Shown here in pieces: positions 8,040 through 25,054 of a DNA stretch of 41,759 bases (positions are counted from its first letter, which is position 1; each line of letters opens with the position of its first letter). Made by a program: the position numbers and the translations under genes. This DNA is from Oscillospiraceae bacterium (lineage in GTDB: Bacteria > Bacillota > Clostridia > Oscillospirales > Oscillospiraceae). The stretch lies in NCBI GenBank assembly GCA_017479425.1, contig JAFVCD010000014.1, forward strand, positions 1 to 41,759. Reading direction: 5' to 3'. The notes below the pieces were generated by a model. It worked only from the letters and a program-made list of their open reading frames with translations. It had not been told where the DNA came from and ran no database searches.

Positions 8040-9476
8040 TCAGTCCTTCAGCGCGAGGCTGAAAACAAACGTCGTGAGGTTATTTTCGCTCGTGACGTAG
8101 ATCTCGCCGCCGTGGCTGTCGAGAATGGTTTTGACGATATAGAGCCCGAGTCCGACGCCGTCCTTATCCATGCTTCTGGAGCGGTCGGTCTTGTGGAAGC
8201 GGTCGAAGATGAGCGGCAGCTCCTCCTTCGATATCGTATCGCCCTCGTTGGAAACCGTGACAAACGCACGCTCCCGCTCCTTATATAGCTCAATGCCGAT
8301 GCTCGAGCCGGAGTAGGCGAATTTCGCCGCGTTGTCGATGAGGTTGTAGACCACCTGCGTTATGGAATCGCGGTCGCCCTTGACCATAACCGGCTCCTCG
8401 GGGATGTTCGCGTCCACATCAAGTCCGCGGTCGGTGATTTTCTTCTCAAGGCTCACGAGCGCGAGGCGGATTACCTCGCCGAGGTCAAAGGACTTCTGCA
8501 TCGCCTCCTCACGGTCTATCGCCTGAACGCGCGACATATCGAGCATACCGCGCACAAGGCGGCTGAGGCGCTTCGTTTCGCTGGAGATAACGCCGAGATA
8601 CTCCCGCTCCTTCTCGGGCGGGATCGTGCCGTCGAGAATGCCGTCAGCAAAGCCGGTGATGGTCGTCATCGGGGTTTTCAGCTCGTGCGAAACATTGGCG
8701 ATGAGGTCGCGGCGCGCGTTTTCACCGCGCTCGAGGGAGTCCGCCATCTTGTTGAAGGCTCGGCTGAGCTCGCCTATCTCATCGAGCCTGTCGTTTTCAT
8801 CGACGCGCACGGAGAAATCGCCCTTGCCGAACCTCGCGGCGGCGTCGGCTATCTCCTTTATGGGCTTTGCCTGCTTCTTCGTAGTTATAAAGCTCACAAC
8901 AAACGCCGCCAGCATGACGAGAATGCCGATCGAGAGGAACATACGGCTTGATTTGCGCCATACAAAGCTCAGGTTTTCGCCCTTGCCGGATATGATTATC
9001 AGCCCGTCAAAGCTCGGGTACTCCCAGTCCTGATGGAGCGAAACACCGACGACGTAGCGGTCATCATCGTAAACCCCGCCGAGCTTCGAGAGCGCGGTGT
9101 ACTGCCCGGAATTATTGATAGCGGTCACAACGGCGCGCGGAACGCTCTTTCCGATGTGCTCGCACTCGAGCTCTCTGTCCGAGCAGGAAACTATCGTTCC
9201 GGTTTCGTCAGTGATGAGAATGTGCATATCGCGCGTTTCTCCGAGCAGAACGATGAGTCCGCGGATATCGAGAGAGTCAAGCTCAGCGGCCGAGGCATAG
9301 CTCGATATAAGGCGGCTCGCGGCGACTGCCGAGCCCTTCATATCCTGCGTTTTGGAGTTTATAATGTATCCGTAGCTGACGGCCGCAAACGATACCGCCA
9401 TTATCGCGAACGAAATTGCGACGATAACGGCGATGGTTATGAAGTTTTTAATGTAAATCGAATGAAATTTTCTCAT
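8040..9476 (-). CDS. Sensor histidine kinase, PhoR-like
   Basis: A membrane sensor kinase of 478 residues. Membrane helices lie near residues 13-36 and 179-198, with an extracellular sensing domain of about 140 residues between them. HAMP covers about 199-252, and the dimerisation H-box (SHELKTP) has His264 as the phospho-acceptor. The ATPase domain has an N box YNLIDNAAKF, a weak G1 (SNEGD, Asp replaced by Asn), an F box IFDRFHKTD and the G2 box GVGLGLYIVK. Its ATG overlaps the response regulator stop codon (ATGA), so the two are translated together. The signal is unknown. The neighbouring D-Ala-D-Ala carboxypeptidase, divergently transcribed, hints at a cell-envelope role, but nothing in the sequence proves it. 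Confidence 0.92.
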   Translation of the reverse strand: MRKFHSIYIKNFITIAVIVAISFAIMAVSFAAVSYGYIINSKTQDMKGSAVAASRLISSYASAAELDSLDIRGLIVLLGETRDMHILITDETGTIVSCSDRELECEHIGKSVPRAVVTAINNSGQYTALSKLGGVYDDDRYVVGVSLHQDWEYPSFDGLIIISGKGENLSFVWRKSSRMFLSIGILVMLAAFVVSFITTKKQAKPIKEIADAAARFGKGDFSVRVDENDRLDEIGELSRAFNKMADSLERGENARRDLIANVSHELKTPMTTITGFADGILDGTIPPEKEREYLGVISSETKRLSRLVRGMLDMSRVQAIDREEAMQKSFDLGEVIRLALVSLEKKITDRGLDVDANIPEEPVMVKGDRDSITQVVYNLIDNAAKFAYSGSSIGIELYKERERAFVTVSNEGDTISKEELPLIFDRFHKTDRSRSMDKDGVGLGLYIVKTILDSHGGEIYVTSENNLTTFVFSLALKD

Positions 9477-10174
9477 TTTCCGGCGCTCTGACCGTTCACC
9501 TCGAACTTATATCCCACGCCCCATACCGTTTTGAGGCTCCATTTATCGCTCACGCCCTCCAGCTTTTCGCGCAGGCGCTTGACGTGGACGTCGACGGTGC
9601 GGCTGTCGCCGAAGTAATCAAAGCCCCACACCTCGTCAAGGAGCTGATTGCGGGTGTAGACTCTGTTTGGGCTGGAGGCGAGGTGGAAAAGGAGCTCCAT
9701 CTCCTTGGGCGGTATATCGAGCTTCTTTCCGTCGACCGTCAGCTCGAACGAATCCATGTCGATCACGAGCTTGTCAAAGGTGAGAACGCGCTCTGAGGTC
9801 TTTTCGTCCTCGCCGAAGCGGCGCAGAACGGCGTGAATACGCGCGACTACCTCCTTGACCTCAAAGGGTTTCGTGATGTAATCGTCGGCGCCGGACTCAA
9901 GGCCGGTGATCTTATCCTGCGTTTCGCCCTTGGCGGTCAGCATAATGACCGGAGTTTTGCTTTTCGAGCGAATCTCGCGCAGCACCTGCCAGCCGTCCAT
10001 AACGGGGAGCATTATATCGAGGAGCACGAGATCAGGCTTCTCCGCGTCGAAAGCGGCAACGCCGGCGCCGCCGTCCTTCGCTACGGCAGTCTCATAGCCC
10101 TCCTTTTCAAGGTAGAGCCGCAGAAGCTCGGCAATATTCGCCTCGTCCTCTATAACAAGTATCTTTTTCGGCAT
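9473..10174 (-). CDS. Response regulator, OmpR/PhoB family
   Basis: A 233-residue regulator with an N-terminal receiver (KKILVIEDE; phospho-acceptor Asp in LVLLDIMLP near residue 53; Lys in YITKPF near 102). The C-terminal winged-helix DNA-binding domain contains PPKEMELLFHLASSPNRVYTR and DSRTVDVHVKRLREKL. It is the partner of the kinase that overlaps its 3' end. I chose the ATG at 10174 (MPKKILV), with GGAG ten bases upstream, over the GTG three codons earlier that overlaps the ribosome binding site. A TATAAT box lies on the minus strand at 10206-10211 without a clear -35 box. The shared gap 10175-10280 also serves the divergent carboxypeptidase gene. Confidence 0.93.
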   Translation of the reverse strand: MPKKILVIEDEANIAELLRLYLEKEGYETAVAKDGGAGVAAFDAEKPDLVLLDIMLPVMDGWQVLREIRSKSKTPVIMLTAKGETQDKITGLESGADDYITKPFEVKEVVARIHAVLRRFGEDEKTSERVLTFDKLVIDMDSFELTVDGKKLDIPPKEMELLFHLASSPNRVYTRNQLLDEVWGFDYFGDSRTVDVHVKRLREKLEGVSDKWSLKTVWGVGYKFEVNGQSAGK

Positions 10175-10280
10175 AGTTATCACTCTCCATGAATCATCTA
10201 TGCCTATTATAACCCCGTTTCCGCTTTTTGGGTGAATTTTTTGTAAAAAAACTTCATACCATCTACGGAGGTGATACGAA

Positions 10281-15726: not shown

Positions 15727-15744
15727 CAAAGGAATCAATATCGG

Positions 15745-15828
15745 AACTTCCTTCGCCGGCATTACCCGTATCAGGTTCGAGGGTCCGCGATAGCGCGTCT
15801 CAGCCTTTCGGCGCCCCTGTTCACGGGT
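15745..15828 (-). promoter_or_regulatory. TPP riboswitch (THI element)
   Basis: The minus strand has all the conserved blocks: ACCCGTGAACAGGGGCGCC, GGCTGAGA, GGACCCTCGAACCTGATA, then GGGTAATGCCGGCGAAGGAA. It controls thiT through the terminator at 15698-15726. The promoter places the transcript start practically at the first base of the aptamer. Confidence 0.97.
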
Positions 15829-18010: not shown

Positions 18011-18913
18011 GTGAAAGACGTAGATTTATTTGATTCAAGTTCATACCGCAATTGGAAATTCTGGCAAAAGCTGCTTGTAAGCATCTTTCTGATGGCGCTG
18101 TTATGCGCAATCGTGTTTTTATTCAAAATTCCGAACCCGAATATGATACTCATATCGTGCCTTGTTATTACAACAGCGCTCTTCGGCTGGCACATCGGAA
18201 TTGCCTCGGCAGCTGTTATGTTTTTATATTCTTCGTTTTTCTTTTCAACCGACTATTCGCTGATTTATTTCACCGCGCAAAACCTTCAGAAGCTATTAGT
18301 CGTATTAGTCGGAGAAACTCTGGTTCTCGTTTTTGTCGGCAGGCTCAAGCAGGCGCACGATTCGACGGTTGCCGAGCTGCGGGAGCTGAACGAGATACTC
18401 ACCGACGATAACAAGATTCTCGCAGAGGCTTCAATGGCGGATCAGCTCACCGGACTTCGCAACCGCTATGCCCTGAGGCGCGATTATGACAGTTTTTCCC
18501 ACCGCGACCTCGTCGTTATGATGATGGACGCCGATGATTTCAAGCACTTCAACGACGCTTACAGCCACGATGTGGGCGACTATGTGCTCTCCGAGATCGG
18601 CGCAAACCTCACAGAAGTATTCGGTGCAGAGAGCTGCTACCGCTACGGCGGCGACGAGTTCCTCGTAATATCGGACCTTGCGCTCGATGAGTTCAAAAAG
18701 CGCATAAATAAGCTTGATAATCTGATGGATGACGTCAGGCTCGACGGCAGCCCATTCCCCGTTCCTATCTCCGGCGGCTACGTTTACGGCCGCAGTCTCA
18801 CGTCCTCGGATCTTCGCAGTATGATCCACGAGGCGGATGTTGCGCTTTACGCCGCAAAGGCTGCAGGAAAGCACCGCTTTAACGGCAAACCGTTTGTGCG
18901 ATTGGCAACATAA
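18011..18913 (+). CDS. Membrane diguanylate cyclase (DUF4118-like + GGDEF)
   Basis: A 300-residue protein. Residues about 20-110 form four membrane helices resembling the DUF4118 sensor module of KdpD (FKIPNPNMILISCLVITTAL). A short coiled segment (112-140) leads to the GGDEF domain with DQLTGLRNRYAL, DADDFKHFND and an intact GGDEF at 213-217. The enzyme should therefore make cyclic di-GMP from two GTP. The RxxD inhibitory site expected just before GGDEF is replaced (FGAES), so feedback inhibition is probably missing. The start is GTG with GGAGG eight bases upstream; a longer ATG start is not available. It is a single gene with its own promoter and a shared terminator. Confidence 0.88.
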   Translation: MKDVDLFDSSSYRNWKFWQKLLVSIFLMALLCAIVFLFKIPNPNMILISCLVITTALFGWHIGIASAAVMFLYSSFFFSTDYSLIYFTAQNLQKLLVVLVGETLVLVFVGRLKQAHDSTVAELRELNEILTDDNKILAEASMADQLTGLRNRYALRRDYDSFSHRDLVVMMMDADDFKHFNDAYSHDVGDYVLSEIGANLTEVFGAESCYRYGGDEFLVISDLALDEFKKRINKLDNLMDDVRLDGSPFPVPISGGYVYGRSLTSSDLRSMIHEADVALYAAKAAGKHRFNGKPFVRLAT

Positions 18914-21611: not shown

Positions 21612-21647
21612 AAAATACGTGGCTGTGACAAATGCTCACAGCCACGT
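21612..21647 (-). terminator. Terminator of the permease-kinase gene
   Basis: A perfect 12-pair hairpin ACGTGGCTGTGA/TCACAGCCACGT (21617-21647) followed on the minus strand by ATTTTGTC, five bases after the stop codon. Confidence 0.85.
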
Positions 21648-21651
21648 TAAG

Positions 21652-24600
21652 TTATTTCTTCAATAATTTTGCGAGCGTATCGTAGAGCCGCTCGGGGTCT
21701 ACAGGCTTCGAGAGGTGCGCGTTCATGCCAGCCTGGAGCGAGCGTTGAACGTCCTCATCAAAGGCGTCGGCAGTCATGGCGATTATCGGAACAGTCTTTG
21801 CGTCCTCCTTGTCGAGGGCTCGGATGCACCGTGTCGCCTCAAGTCCATCCTTTACGGGCATACGCACGTCCATAAGCACCGCGTCGTAGTAGCCAGGCTC
21901 GGCCTTGGAGAACATCTCCACGGCGATCTCGCCGTTTTCGGCGCGCTCGGACGAAATGCCGCGCATTTCGAGCAGGTCTGCGAGAATCTCGGCGTTTATC
22001 TCAATATCCTCCGCCATAAGGATCCTTCTGCCCTCGAGGACATCCTCCCCGGGCGTCTCTTCCTCCTCTTTCTCAAACGCCTCGCCCCTTGTGCGCATAA
22101 CGGAGAATATCTCCCTTTGCAGAGAATCCGAGAAGAGCGGCTTCGGAAGCACACCGTCTGCGCCGGCCTTCTTCGCCTTCTCGCCGATCTCGTCGATATC
22201 GTAGCCGGTGAGGACGATTATCGCCGTTCTTCCGTTGTCGAAGCGGCGGATCTCCTCGGTGAGCGCGCCGCCGTCCATAACGGGCATACGGTAGTCTGTC
22301 ATAACGATGTGGAAGGGCTTGCAGTCAGTCCAGCGCTGGCGGATGAGACTGTACGCCTCGGTGCTGCGCTGGCAGGTCTCCGCCTCGATGCCCATCTCGC
22401 TGAGCACCATCTTCGCGTGCTCGCAGGCAACGGCGTCATCGTCCACTACGAGAACGCGCAGGCGGCTGAGATTGCGGTTCTTATCGCTCTCGCGCGAGGC
22501 TCTGCCGCTCGCCTTGAGCGTAACTGTCACGATAAACGTGGAGCCGACGCCCTTTTCGCTCTCGACCTTTATTTCGCCGTTCATCATATCGACAAGGTTT
22601 TTCGTTATCGCCATGCCGAGGCCGCTGCCGCCGTAGCGGTTTGTTGTAGTCGCGTCCTCCTGCGAAAATGCCTCAAAGAGCTTGGGAATGAACTCCTTAT
22701 CCATTCCGATGCCGGTGTCCTTCATCGTAAAGCGCAGGGTGCAGTGACCCTCAAACCGCGCGATCTCCTCTGCGGTGAGCGTGACCCTGCCGGGCGCGGG
22801 CGTAAACTTTACGGAGTTGCCGAGGATGTTGATAAGCACCTGCTTGAGCTTCATATCGTCGCCGACGAAGTATTCGTCGATTTCTCCGGCGGGTATGAAT
22901 TCGTAGGTGAGCCCCTTTTCGGAGCACTGGCCGTTTATGATGATATTGACCGCCTCAACGAGCTCTTTGAACGCAAATTCCTCGCTTTTCAGCACCATTC
23001 TGCCCGATTCAATGCGGCTCATATCGAGGATGTCGTTTATGAGTCCGAGCAGATGTCTCGCGCTTGCGCCGATCTTCTCGAGCTGTTCGCGCGTCTGCGG
23101 CGGGAGCGCCGGATCCTTCAGCGCGATGTTGTCAAGTCCGATGATGGCGTTCATCGGCGTTCTGATCTCGTGGCTCATGTTCGACAGGAAGCTCGTCTTT
23201 GCGCGGCTCGACTCCTCCGCGAGCGCCTTTTCGACCATGATCTGCTTCTCGCGCTTCTGCAAAATCGAGTAGACGTTGAAGATTATGGCGATAGCGGCGA
23301 CGATCAGTCCCGTGTAAATGAGAATATTTACGCTGAGCGAGCGCTCAACAGTGTTGAGCACCTCGTTTATCTTCTGCTCGCTCTCCGCCTCCTCGGCGGG
23401 AGTTTCGTCAACGCGGCTCGCGTAGTGCTCCTGAATGGGATTTACGGCGTCGACCACCGCCTTCTCGGTGCTCTGCCTCGCCCAGACGAGAGAGGTGAAG
23501 ATTATGAGCGCGAGAAGCGCTATCCACACGACCGTGGAGCGGCCGAGGCGGCGTTCTGTGTCGTGCTTGAACACCATTCGGTAGAAGAGGAAGCCCAGAA
23601 TGCTCCACGCGGCAAGAATCAGATAGCTCTCGGTCGAAAGCGTAGTGACGGAGAGCACATTCGGAATGAGAAAATAGAGCGCAAAAACGCCGCTCGCGGC
23701 AAGTCCCGCTCCGGCAAAAATCGTCATCACCGTGTTCTTCTTCCCGCGCGATACCTTGAGCGCGCAGCCCGAGACGTAGGCATAGGCGATCGCCGCGCCG
23801 ACGGTGGTGACGTCGACTATCCAGCTTATCGCGGTGCGCCCGAGGAACGGGAACGGAAGTGAGATCGCAAGGATGAAGATTATCGCGTTTTTCGGCGTGC
23901 CGGACTCTGTGAGCCTTCCGAACCACTCGGGCAGCAGCTCATCCTCACTGAGCGCGTGGAGAAGGCGGCTCGCGGCGATGAGGTTGCCGACAAGTCCGGT
24001 CAGAATCGCGCCGAAGGCGGTAAGACCCATAATGAGCCTTCCGGTGTCGCCCAGTCTGCTCGACGCGGCAAAGAAGGTCGGTATCGACTGCGCGCCGCTG
24101 TACTCGTCGAGCCTTCCGACGTACTCTACCCAGGATTCCGCGCCCTCCGGCTGCACCATAGCGCCGGTGACCGCGAGCATTGAATAGGCCGCGCAGGCGG
24201 CGATAAGCGAGGCGAGCATAACGATGAGGCTCTTTTTCTTGTCGAATCTGAACTCCGCCGCGGAGTGCGAGATGCTCTCGAAGCCCACGAAAGCCCACGG
24301 TGCAAGGCAGATAATGTTGAATATCTCGCGCACCGGCTGACCAGACGGGGAAAACGCGGGCTCCGGCATCTCTCCGGAGGCACGGCAGGCGATATACGCC
24401 GCACCGATTCCCGCGCACATGACGAGGGCGGCCAGAATCTGCACCGCCTTCGACGCCTTATTGTTGAGGCAGATAAGCGCGGCGACGGCGAGGGCGGCGA
24501 CGGCGAGCATAATCTCACCGAACCAGACGTGAAAGCCCGCGATAGTGTAGTCAAAGCCGAACTGAAACGCGCTTCCGAGCAGGTTTCGCGCAATCAGCGG

Positions 24601-24945
24601 CAGCGCCGAGGCGTTCGCCCAGATGATCGCAACGTAAGTCAGAATAAGAAACCACGCCGAGAGGAAGCCGTGGTCATAGCCAAAGGTGCGCTTTGTGTAG
24701 GAAAAGGCTCCTCCGGCGTCCGGGTAGGCGTTCAGCATATACGAGTAGTTGACGGCGATGATCGCCATGACCACCGCGCCTAGCGCAATTCCGATCACCG
24801 TTCCGGCGGGGCCGGCGATCGGTAGAAACGTCGTTCCGGGCATAACAAAAGCGCCCCATCCGACGGCGCAGCCGAATGCAAGCGCCCACGCGCCGAGAGG
24901 CGATAAATATCTCTGCAAAGACGGCTTATCAGTCTTTTTGTCCAT
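21652..24945 (-). CDS. APC-family amino acid permease fused to a hybrid histidine kinase with two receivers
   Basis: A single 1097-residue frame. Residues 10-490 are an APC permease with about 12 helices (GWGAFVMPGTTFLPIAGPAG near 29-48). A last helix (471-489), an outer loop of about 45 residues and another helix (539-558) join it to a kinase. H-box SHEIRTP has His592; N box LINILGN (Asn710); G1 KDTGIG and G2 GGSGLGMAI are intact. Receiver 1 (830-950) has Asp884 and Lys935; receiver 2 (974-1095) has Asp1026 and Lys1080. No HPt or DNA-binding domain follows. Start is the ATG at 24945, nine bases after AAAGGA, rather than an ATG 22 codons earlier. It resembles in plan the SLC5-kinase CbrA, with another transporter family. 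It has its own promoter and terminator; the output partner is not nearby. Confidence 0.92.
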   Translation of the reverse strand: MDKKTDKPSLQRYLSPLGAWALAFGCAVGWGAFVMPGTTFLPIAGPAGTVIGIALGAVVMAIIAVNYSYMLNAYPDAGGAFSYTKRTFGYDHGFLSAWFLILTYVAIIWANASALPLIARNLLGSAFQFGFDYTIAGFHVWFGEIMLAVAALAVAALICLNNKASKAVQILAALVMCAGIGAAYIACRASGEMPEPAFSPSGQPVREIFNIICLAPWAFVGFESISHSAAEFRFDKKKSLIVMLASLIAACAAYSMLAVTGAMVQPEGAESWVEYVGRLDEYSGAQSIPTFFAASSRLGDTGRLIMGLTAFGAILTGLVGNLIAASRLLHALSEDELLPEWFGRLTESGTPKNAIIFILAISLPFPFLGRTAISWIVDVTTVGAAIAYAYVSGCALKVSRGKKNTVMTIFAGAGLAASGVFALYFLIPNVLSVTTLSTESYLILAAWSILGFLFYRMVFKHDTERRLGRSTVVWIALLALIIFTSLVWARQSTEKAVVDAVNPIQEHYASRVDETPAEEAESEQKINEVLNTVERSLSVNILIYTGLIVAAIAIIFNVYSILQKREKQIMVEKALAEESSRAKTSFLSNMSHEIRTPMNAIIGLDNIALKDPALPPQTREQLEKIGASARHLLGLINDILDMSRIESGRMVLKSEEFAFKELVEAVNIIINGQCSEKGLTYEFIPAGEIDEYFVGDDMKLKQVLINILGNSVKFTPAPGRVTLTAEEIARFEGHCTLRFTMKDTGIGMDKEFIPKLFEAFSQEDATTTNRYGGSGLGMAITKNLVDMMNGEIKVESEKGVGSTFIVTVTLKASGRASRESDKNRNLSRLRVLVVDDDAVACEHAKMVLSEMGIEAETCQRSTEAYSLIRQRWTDCKPFHIVMTDYRMPVMDGGALTEEIRRFDNGRTAIIVLTGYDIDEIGEKAKKAGADGVLPKPLFSDSLQREIFSVMRTRGEAFEKEEEETPGEDVLEGRRILMAEDIEINAEILADLLEMRGISSERAENGEIAVEMFSKAEPGYYDAVLMDVRMPVKDGLEATRCIRALDKEDAKTVPIIAMTADAFDEDVQRSLQAGMNAHLSKPVDPERLYDTLAKLLKK

Positions 24946-24982
24946 ACGTTCAGATCCTTTCAAAGACAGATACCTATTATAT

Positions 24983-25011
24983 ATAATATTCCCCGCGGCG
25001 TGAAAAGTCAA
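24983..25011 (-). promoter_or_regulatory. Promoter of the permease-kinase gene
   Basis: Minus strand TTGACT (25006-25011), 17-base spacer, TATTAT (24983-24988), directly after the queT terminator. Confidence 0.8.
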
Positions 25012-25017
25012 GGATAT

Positions 25018-25047
25018 GAAAAAGCACCTCGTTCAGAACGAGATGCT
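25018..25047 (-). terminator. Terminator of queT
   Basis: Minus strand AGCATCTCGTT pairs with AACGAGGTGCT (one G-U) and is followed by TTTTTC. Confidence 0.85.
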
Positions 25048-25054
25048 TATATAT

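Follow-up and report, generated by a model that had tools for sequence, protein, structure and literature searches.

The 41,759-nucleotide contig JAFVCD010000014.1 of an Oscillospiraceae bacterium (assembly GCA_017479425.1), referred to in its full length as the window, encodes a protein of 1097 residues in which an amino-acid permease of the APC family is fused to a histidine kinase (HK) and two receivers (REC). The fusion is real and represents a widespread family. On balance, we favor a scenario in which an APC permease was turned into a receptor module of 12 plus 2 transmembrane helices (TMs) once, and this module was later joined to diguanylate cyclases, to HD-GYP phosphodiesterases and to two or more lineages of kinases in gut members of the Clostridia, Negativicutes and Coriobacteriia; the result would be a large class of amino-acid transceptors with cyclic di-GMP (c-di-GMP) as common output. 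For the window protein itself, we lean to a similar degree towards a transporter-derived amino-acid receptor that feeds c-di-GMP breakdown via a phosphorelay leading from the HK and its REC through an HPt protein to a REC-EAL protein.

The gene is a single open frame of 1097 codons on the minus strand (24945-21652), which starts with an ATG at 24945, preceded by AAAGGA, and upon translation contains one stop, at its end (21654-21652); the first frame of the plus strand of 21652-24945 contains stops. An earlier note on this DNA, made from its letters, had described an uninterrupted frame of this length without stating the strand. The permease domain (residues 1-460; 23566-24945) matches AA_permease_2 (PF13520) at residues 14-429 with an E-value of 1.5e-26 and 93.7 bits against a cut-off of 27, covering positions 1-403 of the 427 in the profile. 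Hydropathy reveals 14 peaks: 12 in the APC part, TM13 at residues 471-489 and TM14 at 537-555, the latter two enclosing an outer loop of 47 residues (490-536) that had been estimated at about 45. This TM13-loop-TM14 segment (residues 461-562; 23260-23565) links the permease to the kinase, with a spacing of ~25 residues between TM14 and HisKA. HisKA (residues 582-648; 23002-23202; His592 at 23170-23172), HATPase_c (residues 695-810; 22516-22863), receiver 1 (about residues 827-955; 22081-22467; Asp884 at 22294-22296) and receiver 2 (residues 975-1091; 21673-22023; Asp1026 at 21868-21870) all score above their Pfam cut-offs. The domains and catalytic residues assigned in the earlier note are thus confirmed, as is its statement that the frame lacks an output domain of its own: HPt, DNA-binding or enzymatic output domains were not detected within it by Pfam. 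The fusion had also been set apart from the SLC5 type of CbrA; consistently, there is no Pfam match to an SLC5 (sodium/solute symporter) domain at E 0.001. Residues 430-581, which hold the two membrane helices of the link, have no Pfam match, STAC included, the presence of a STAC model in Pfam being unchecked.

An assembly or frame artefact can be ruled out. A congener from the same genus (G181; genomes, contigs and loci are designated by G, C and L numbers) carries the whole frame with 89.8% identity across 1095 residues, and a scan of a species-genome collection yielded at least 597 stretches, at least 586 of them encoding a relative, of which the best 80 loci were kept; as the window protein headed the query, the ranking of these loci favors kinase types. 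Of the 83 APC frames in them, 69 are complete APC-kinases (37 have one receiver, 31 have two, and in one the kinase match is split in two) and 8 are APC-kinases truncated at a contig end; another 3 have GGDEF outputs, and the last 3 break off before any output. Near-duplicates are included in these numbers: L085 and L145 do not differ in APC and kinase, and L034 and L107 hardly do. Homologues split at the joint had been named as a sign of misassembly; free-standing APC permeases do exist, but they fall outside the fusion clade. Between the window and G181, the only pair for which it was computed (Nei-Gojobori method), the ratio of nonsynonymous to synonymous substitution rates (dN/dS) is 0.10 overall: 0.13 in the APC part, 0.05 in TM13, 0.07 in the loop, 0.10 in TM14 with the adjoining coil, 0.08 in the HK, 0.05 in receiver 1 and 0.12 in receiver 2.

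Relatives of the APC part are found at E 1e-20 in 22 of 200 genomes of the family (the window's own included), some being solo permeases or contig-end fragments, and 13 of the 200 carry APC-kinases. At E 1e-60, 14 of 391 class genomes and 10 of 398 phylum genomes have matches (own genome included, fusions and solo permeases pooled). The record titles of the loci comprise Lachnospiraceae, Oscillospiraceae, Ruminococcaceae, Selenomonadaceae, Erysipelotrichaceae, Coriobacteriaceae and Atopobiaceae, although titles of metagenome-assembled genomes may be wrong; named strains are, by title, Eubacterium ruminantium FB3002 (L137) and Butyrivibrio sp. WCD3002 (L136). Many titles carry ruminant hosts or RUG/RGIG names, which we take to denote rumen series; no enrichment is claimed. 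Among plasmid sequences, the APC part has matches in 44 records; identity stays below 60% throughout, the best among the matches listed being 33% (Staphylococcus).

The same permease domain is joined to several other outputs. The sole other APC-family match in the window's genome is an APC-GGDEF protein of 746 residues (L001:1453-3693; G000:C14) with an intact GGDEF motif. An APC-GGDEF-REC-GGDEF-EAL protein of 1445 residues occurs in L034, where its domains were assigned by Pfam, and in L107, and APC-HD-GYP proteins with a Pfam HD_5 match and the GYP motif in L149:4438-6813 (792 residues) and L151:957-3179 (741 residues). The GGDEF motif is kept in 15/16 APC-GGDEF frames, and in L034, L107 and L118 a double-receiver kinase adjoins a GGDEF fusion. 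The occurrence of the module on GGDEF and HD-GYP outputs thus indicates a c-di-GMP theme.

A tree of the APC domain (130 rows) separates 111 classified fusions and 3 cut rows from 16 solo permeases with a Shimodaira-Hasegawa-like approximate likelihood-ratio (SH-aLRT) support of 99, and 17 GGDEF and HD-GYP rows are nested together (support 100), with one GGDEF row (L135) outside; this is a quick tree with SH-aLRT support alone, in which the outgroup does not split off on a single branch and the HKR label takes in frames cut by a contig end, and closer solo permeases may be missing from the sample. In a tree of the kinase core (150 rows), APC sits on two separate lineages, sets of 35 and 63 rows (support 98 each), the larger of which includes 10 kinases that have other sensors. 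This tree needs a minimum of four changes, and its well-supported branches force at least two. Because several outputs and two kinase lineages share a permease from one side of the APC tree, APC plus TM13-TM14 behaves as an exchangeable input module.

Some further arrangements were noted in passing. In two genomes of the same phylum, receiver-less APC-kinase frames lie in tandem (L191:3504-8406, L192:393-5382), three of the four being recognised as kinases and the fourth reading as degraded. Solo permeases related to the fused APC form tandem arrays of two or three (L193:3526-8891, L194:4264-7279, L195:4357-10683). The APC-GGDEF frame of G181 (L049:8087-10333) loses its GGDEF reading part-way and is overlapped by a second GGDEF-matching frame.

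The motifs of the helices that form the pocket have been preserved. G25, G29, W30, G31, P216, W217, A218, G221, F222, R327, G369, R370, W375 and D378, located in TM1, TM6, TM8 and TM10, are kept in at least 109/111 fusions, and G25, G29, G31, W217, G221 and F222 of the glycine-rich, broken helices TM1 and TM6 (motifs G-x-G-W-G and PWAxxGFE) in 111/111; these residues are also found in most solo permeases, though the far ones keep W217 and A218 less often. Other positions distinguish the fusions: E223 (TM6) is present in 111/111 fusions as opposed to D in 14/16 solos, H227 (TM6) in 92/111 as opposed to Q in 14/16, and D91 (111/111) and W109 (TM3; 108/111) were not seen in any of the 16 solos. 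As the core motifs are kept while E223, D91, W109 and H227 are specific to the fusions, the alignment argues for a binding site that is retained but retuned. The proposal that the APC part reports on its own substrate or flux is a reasonable inference.

Two refinements of the receptor view differ in what became of transport, and to each we would assign a limited and equal chance. The APC domain may still move amino acids while the kinase reads the flux or the occupied state, in analogy to CbrA, which transports histidine (in the part of the account available, PMC13022988): such a dual-function transceptor would fit the pocket motifs, the dN/dS of the APC part and the fact that the only other APC-family gene found in the genome is itself a fusion. 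E223, H227 and W109 suggest retuning, however, and an unchanged pocket would also be expected of a receptor that does not transport. Alternatively, transport may have been lost and the domain may merely bind its ligand, as reported for the Amt domain in Ks-Amt5, which sets a precedent that has neither STAC nor HAMP according to the available portion of its description (PMC5764959); the fusion-specific E223, D91 and W109 would be explained in this manner, yet the core motifs are not degraded and the substitutions could equally reflect a change of substrate.

The nearest solved relatives by sequence are CAT4, CAT1 and the bacterial 'Amino acid transporter' of 5oqt/6f34 (GkApcT), with AdiC and xCT more distant. 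All of CAT1/CAT4, 5oqt/6f34 and AdiC share the TM1 and TM6 motifs with the APC part; unlike the fusion, they are free-standing or 14-helix transporters without signalling domains. In ApcT-type transporters, a lysine in TM5 serves proton coupling; its absence was considered as a mark of lost transport and rejected, since the lysine is likewise missing in at least 15/16 solos, a single K occurring at residue 176 among the far ones. A substrate could not be deduced from the neighbors of the two nearest solo permeases (L051, L153) either: these are adenylosuccinate enzymes and alanyl-tRNA-synthetase-like, adenylation-domain and ATP-grasp-like proteins, and the best NCBIfam matches of the two permeases (BcaP, 2A0306) remain far under the cut-off.

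The link between permease and kinase is a further characteristic of the fusions. TM13, loop and TM14 are absent from the free-standing permeases sampled, and W474 and W488, conserved across fusions, are mostly gaps in solos. The two helices that flank the outer loop resemble an ordinary kinase sensor, which raises the question whether the loop itself senses, the APC permease being a tethered passenger or even under control of the kinase. The low dN/dS of the 47 loop residues between the two congeners would suit this idea, but the distance from residue 488 to 540 varies between 21 and 59 residues across 84 frames, the loop is poorly conserved in A1 whereas the pocket residues are nearly invariant, and the hairpin was not seen without APC, though no search for it was made. 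We consider a sensory loop quite improbable. The signalling residues are intact: His592 and the aspartate of the last receiver are present in 84/84 complete fusion rows, Asp884 of the first receiver in 36/36 double-receiver rows, and N710, D743, G745, G747, G775, L776 and G777 of HATPase_c in 84/84. The transporter motifs and the kinase and receiver residues are thus conserved in relatives; a lack of conserved transporter or kinase residues had been listed in the earlier note among the findings that would speak against it.

A candidate for the target of the relay emerges from the gene order in relatives, which usually is HK-REC, REC-GGDEF-EAL, a frame of ~122 residues and APC-HK-REC(-REC). An EAL gene on the same strand lies within 1.2 kb of 45/94 APC-kinase frames, and HK-REC is found directly upstream of the EAL gene in 33 loci. 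If only complete frames preceded by 1.5 kb or more of sequence are counted, REC-GGDEF-EAL is adjacent to 26/32 double-receiver frames, usually with a stand-alone HPt in between, and an EAL gene to 11/44 single-receiver frames. The claim that the target regulator is not adjacent consequently holds for the window but not for most of these double-receiver frames. If receiver-GGDEF genes are included, 46/94 frames are counted as paired, and a frame of 115-140 residues lies within 40 of the pairs; H60, K63 and G64 are invariant in 41/41 sequences (the 40 frames and the HPt of the window's own genome), and both of the two that were run through Pfam match Hpt. As the EAL motif is intact in 44/46 of the REC-GGDEF-EAL proteins and the GG[DE]EF motif in 1/46, they should be phosphodiesterases. 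The same gene order recurs in loci titled Coriobacteriaceae or Atopobiaceae (L086, L087, L095, L108).

Other neighborhoods occur too. The gene after the fusion in E. ruminantium (L137:8879-12283), which overlaps it by 14 bases, contains two SBP_bac_3 stretches of the amino-acid-binding type, PAS and GGDEF; neighbors of similar length with an intact GGDEF near the end, as read from the motif, occur in L074, L082, L084, L093, L100 and L101. In Butyrivibrio sp. WCD3002 (L136:4669-11396), REC-GGDEF, APC-HK-REC and another HK-REC follow in a row, the REC-GGDEF gene (motif intact) ending 25 bases ahead of the fusion.

The window's own genome, which is 84% complete, possesses the same pair on contig C7: its single Pfam Hpt match (G000:C7:67241-67603) belongs to a frame (L159 7236-7604) that shares four bases with the end of a REC-GGDEF-EAL frame (L159 7601-9361); the product of the latter has 43-59% identity with the corresponding proteins of the loci. 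In total, two EAL matches, 26 receiver matches and three double-receiver frames were found in the genome, the last comprising, besides the window gene, one hybrid each on C32 and C36. The C32 hybrid is 67% identical to the window gene in the kinase core and 69% in the last receiver as opposed to 39% in the first; because receiver 2 and the kinase core are so alike, a shared HPt is plausible. Several hybrid kinases converging on one HPt and one regulator are familiar from the LuxU and HptB hubs, and a genome in which three double-receiver frames were found next to a single HPt and a single REC-GGDEF-EAL would allow for an analogous convergence, with the difference that the regulator is a predicted c-di-GMP phosphodiesterase. 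A co-occurring HPt had been suggested as a check in the earlier note: HPts of the C7 type exceed 140 bits in 9/200 family genomes, the next-best score being 87 bits, and eight of the nine are among the 13 genomes with an APC-kinase, including 5/5 with a double-receiver fusion. When HPt loci were fetched anew from other genomes, REC-GGDEF-EAL was beside the HPt in 4/6.

Several observations weigh against this assignment. The fusion and the HPt pair reside on different contigs in the window's genome; 33/44 complete single-receiver frames and 6/32 double-receiver frames (the window, L033, L036, L084, L089 and L143; the congener is among them) have no adjacent EAL gene, although an HPt frame still adjoins in L036. 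The association between HPt and APC-kinase (Fisher 2e-10; 6e-7 once the three genomes that contributed an HPt to the model are set aside) ignores relatedness, and 3/8 of the HPts sit in the model. No high-scoring C7-type HPt is present in five of the family's 13 genomes with an APC-kinase, the ninth genome (G131) has the HPt pair and only a solo permease, and two of the six newly fetched HPt loci (L182, L184) show no REC-GGDEF-EAL beside the HPt. Some neighbors, such as the REC-GGDEF protein of Butyrivibrio, would make rather than break c-di-GMP. It is conceivable, if rather doubtful, that the receptor reading is right and the C7 pair is not the target, with receivers 1 and 2 acting as a sink or another response regulator, of which the 26 receiver matches offer a choice, taking over; the separation of the pair from the window gene and the scarcity of nearby HPt pairs around single-receiver fusions would agree with this. 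Against it stand the resemblance to the C32 hybrid, the finding of one HPt only in the genome and the presence of the C7-type HPt in every family genome with a double-receiver fusion.

Starting from what was observed (the fusion and its conservation, conserved residues of relay and EAL proteins, the arrangement of genes among relatives and the co-occurrence of HPt and fusion), the favored phosphorelay could function in the following manner: An extracellular amino acid, or a near relative, would bind to the APC pocket. The resulting movement of the APC bundle, with or without transport of the ligand, may be passed via the TM13-TM14 hairpin to the dimerisation helices of the kinase dimer, setting the autophosphorylation of His592. 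Phosphate would then presumably be transferred from His592 to the receivers, from there to the separate HPt protein and finally to the receiver of the adjacent REC-GGDEF-EAL protein, in which GGDEF is degenerate and EAL looks intact. The output would be an altered breakdown of c-di-GMP, be it up or down. In the sister proteins, GGDEF or HD-GYP is part of the same chain, so that no relay would be needed.

Fusions of transporters and kinases as such are known already, in the form of the SLC5-STAC proteins CbrA and CrbS and of Amt in Ks-Amt5, none of them of the APC family by the available portions of those accounts (see also PMC7096432). CbrA, described there as a rare transceptor, binds histidine in its SLC5 pocket, with STAC packed beneath (PMC13022988), and transports it (PMC13022988; PMC5715377, PMC9100948). 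Like the fusion studied here, CbrA and CrbS combine an N-terminal secondary transporter and a C-terminal kinase in one chain; theirs is a 13-helix SLC5 domain followed by a cytoplasmic STAC bundle, and by PAS in CbrA, whereas here an APC permease is followed by the TM13-loop-TM14 hairpin and two receivers, without a STAC or PAS match, and the partner is presumably linked to c-di-GMP rather than DNA-binding. Ks-Amt5 likewise recruits a transporter as a sensor and joins it to the kinase without HAMP, PAS or STAC; it differs in being a trimeric Amt channel with a plain kinase, for which loss of transport is reported, and sister fusions with GGDEF or HD-GYP are not mentioned in the available part of its description (PMC5764959). 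The 5TMR or S-component-like sensors (PF07694) also place a transport-related membrane module on kinase, GGDEF and EAL outputs, but with an S-component fold instead of an APC permease; the same source, as far as its available part goes, regards transceptors as eukaryotic oddities and leaves STAC systems out of consideration (PMC11109136). Among the matches listed in the open-access literature, no description of APC-kinase, APC-GGDEF or APC-HD-GYP fusions was recognised by titles and the beginnings of abstracts.

The surprising part is the swapping of modules together with the link to c-di-GMP. Judged from sequence, the APC fusion looks like a widespread nutrient sensor in gut bacteria, and what is called rare (PMC13022988) or an oddity (PMC11109136) elsewhere, in the parts of those accounts available, would here be a large natural family. 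Since one transporter module serves kinase, cyclase and phosphodiesterase outputs, the conversion of transporter motion to signal becomes comparable across outputs and testable by swaps. The proposed route would couple the supply of amino acids directly to c-di-GMP in bacteria of the rumen and gut.

Within the window, the fusion gene is probably transcribed alone because terminator-like hairpins flank it, past its stop codon (21617-21647, minus) and between it and the upstream gene (25022-25048, minus), and two overlapping promoter-like sites lie just upstream (24976-25011, minus); all are consensus matches, and 11 terminator-like sites were found in the whole stretch versus 5.8 in shuffles. 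The upstream gene encodes a QueT homologue according to Pfam. A frame of 300 residues with a GGDEF domain lies ~2.7 kb away from the fusion (18011-18913, plus). The RNA element search of the window returned a thiamine pyrophosphate (TPP) riboswitch (15731-15828, minus; 62.4 bits) as its only match, and an ordinary-looking pair of kinase and response regulator is encoded at 8040-10183 (minus).

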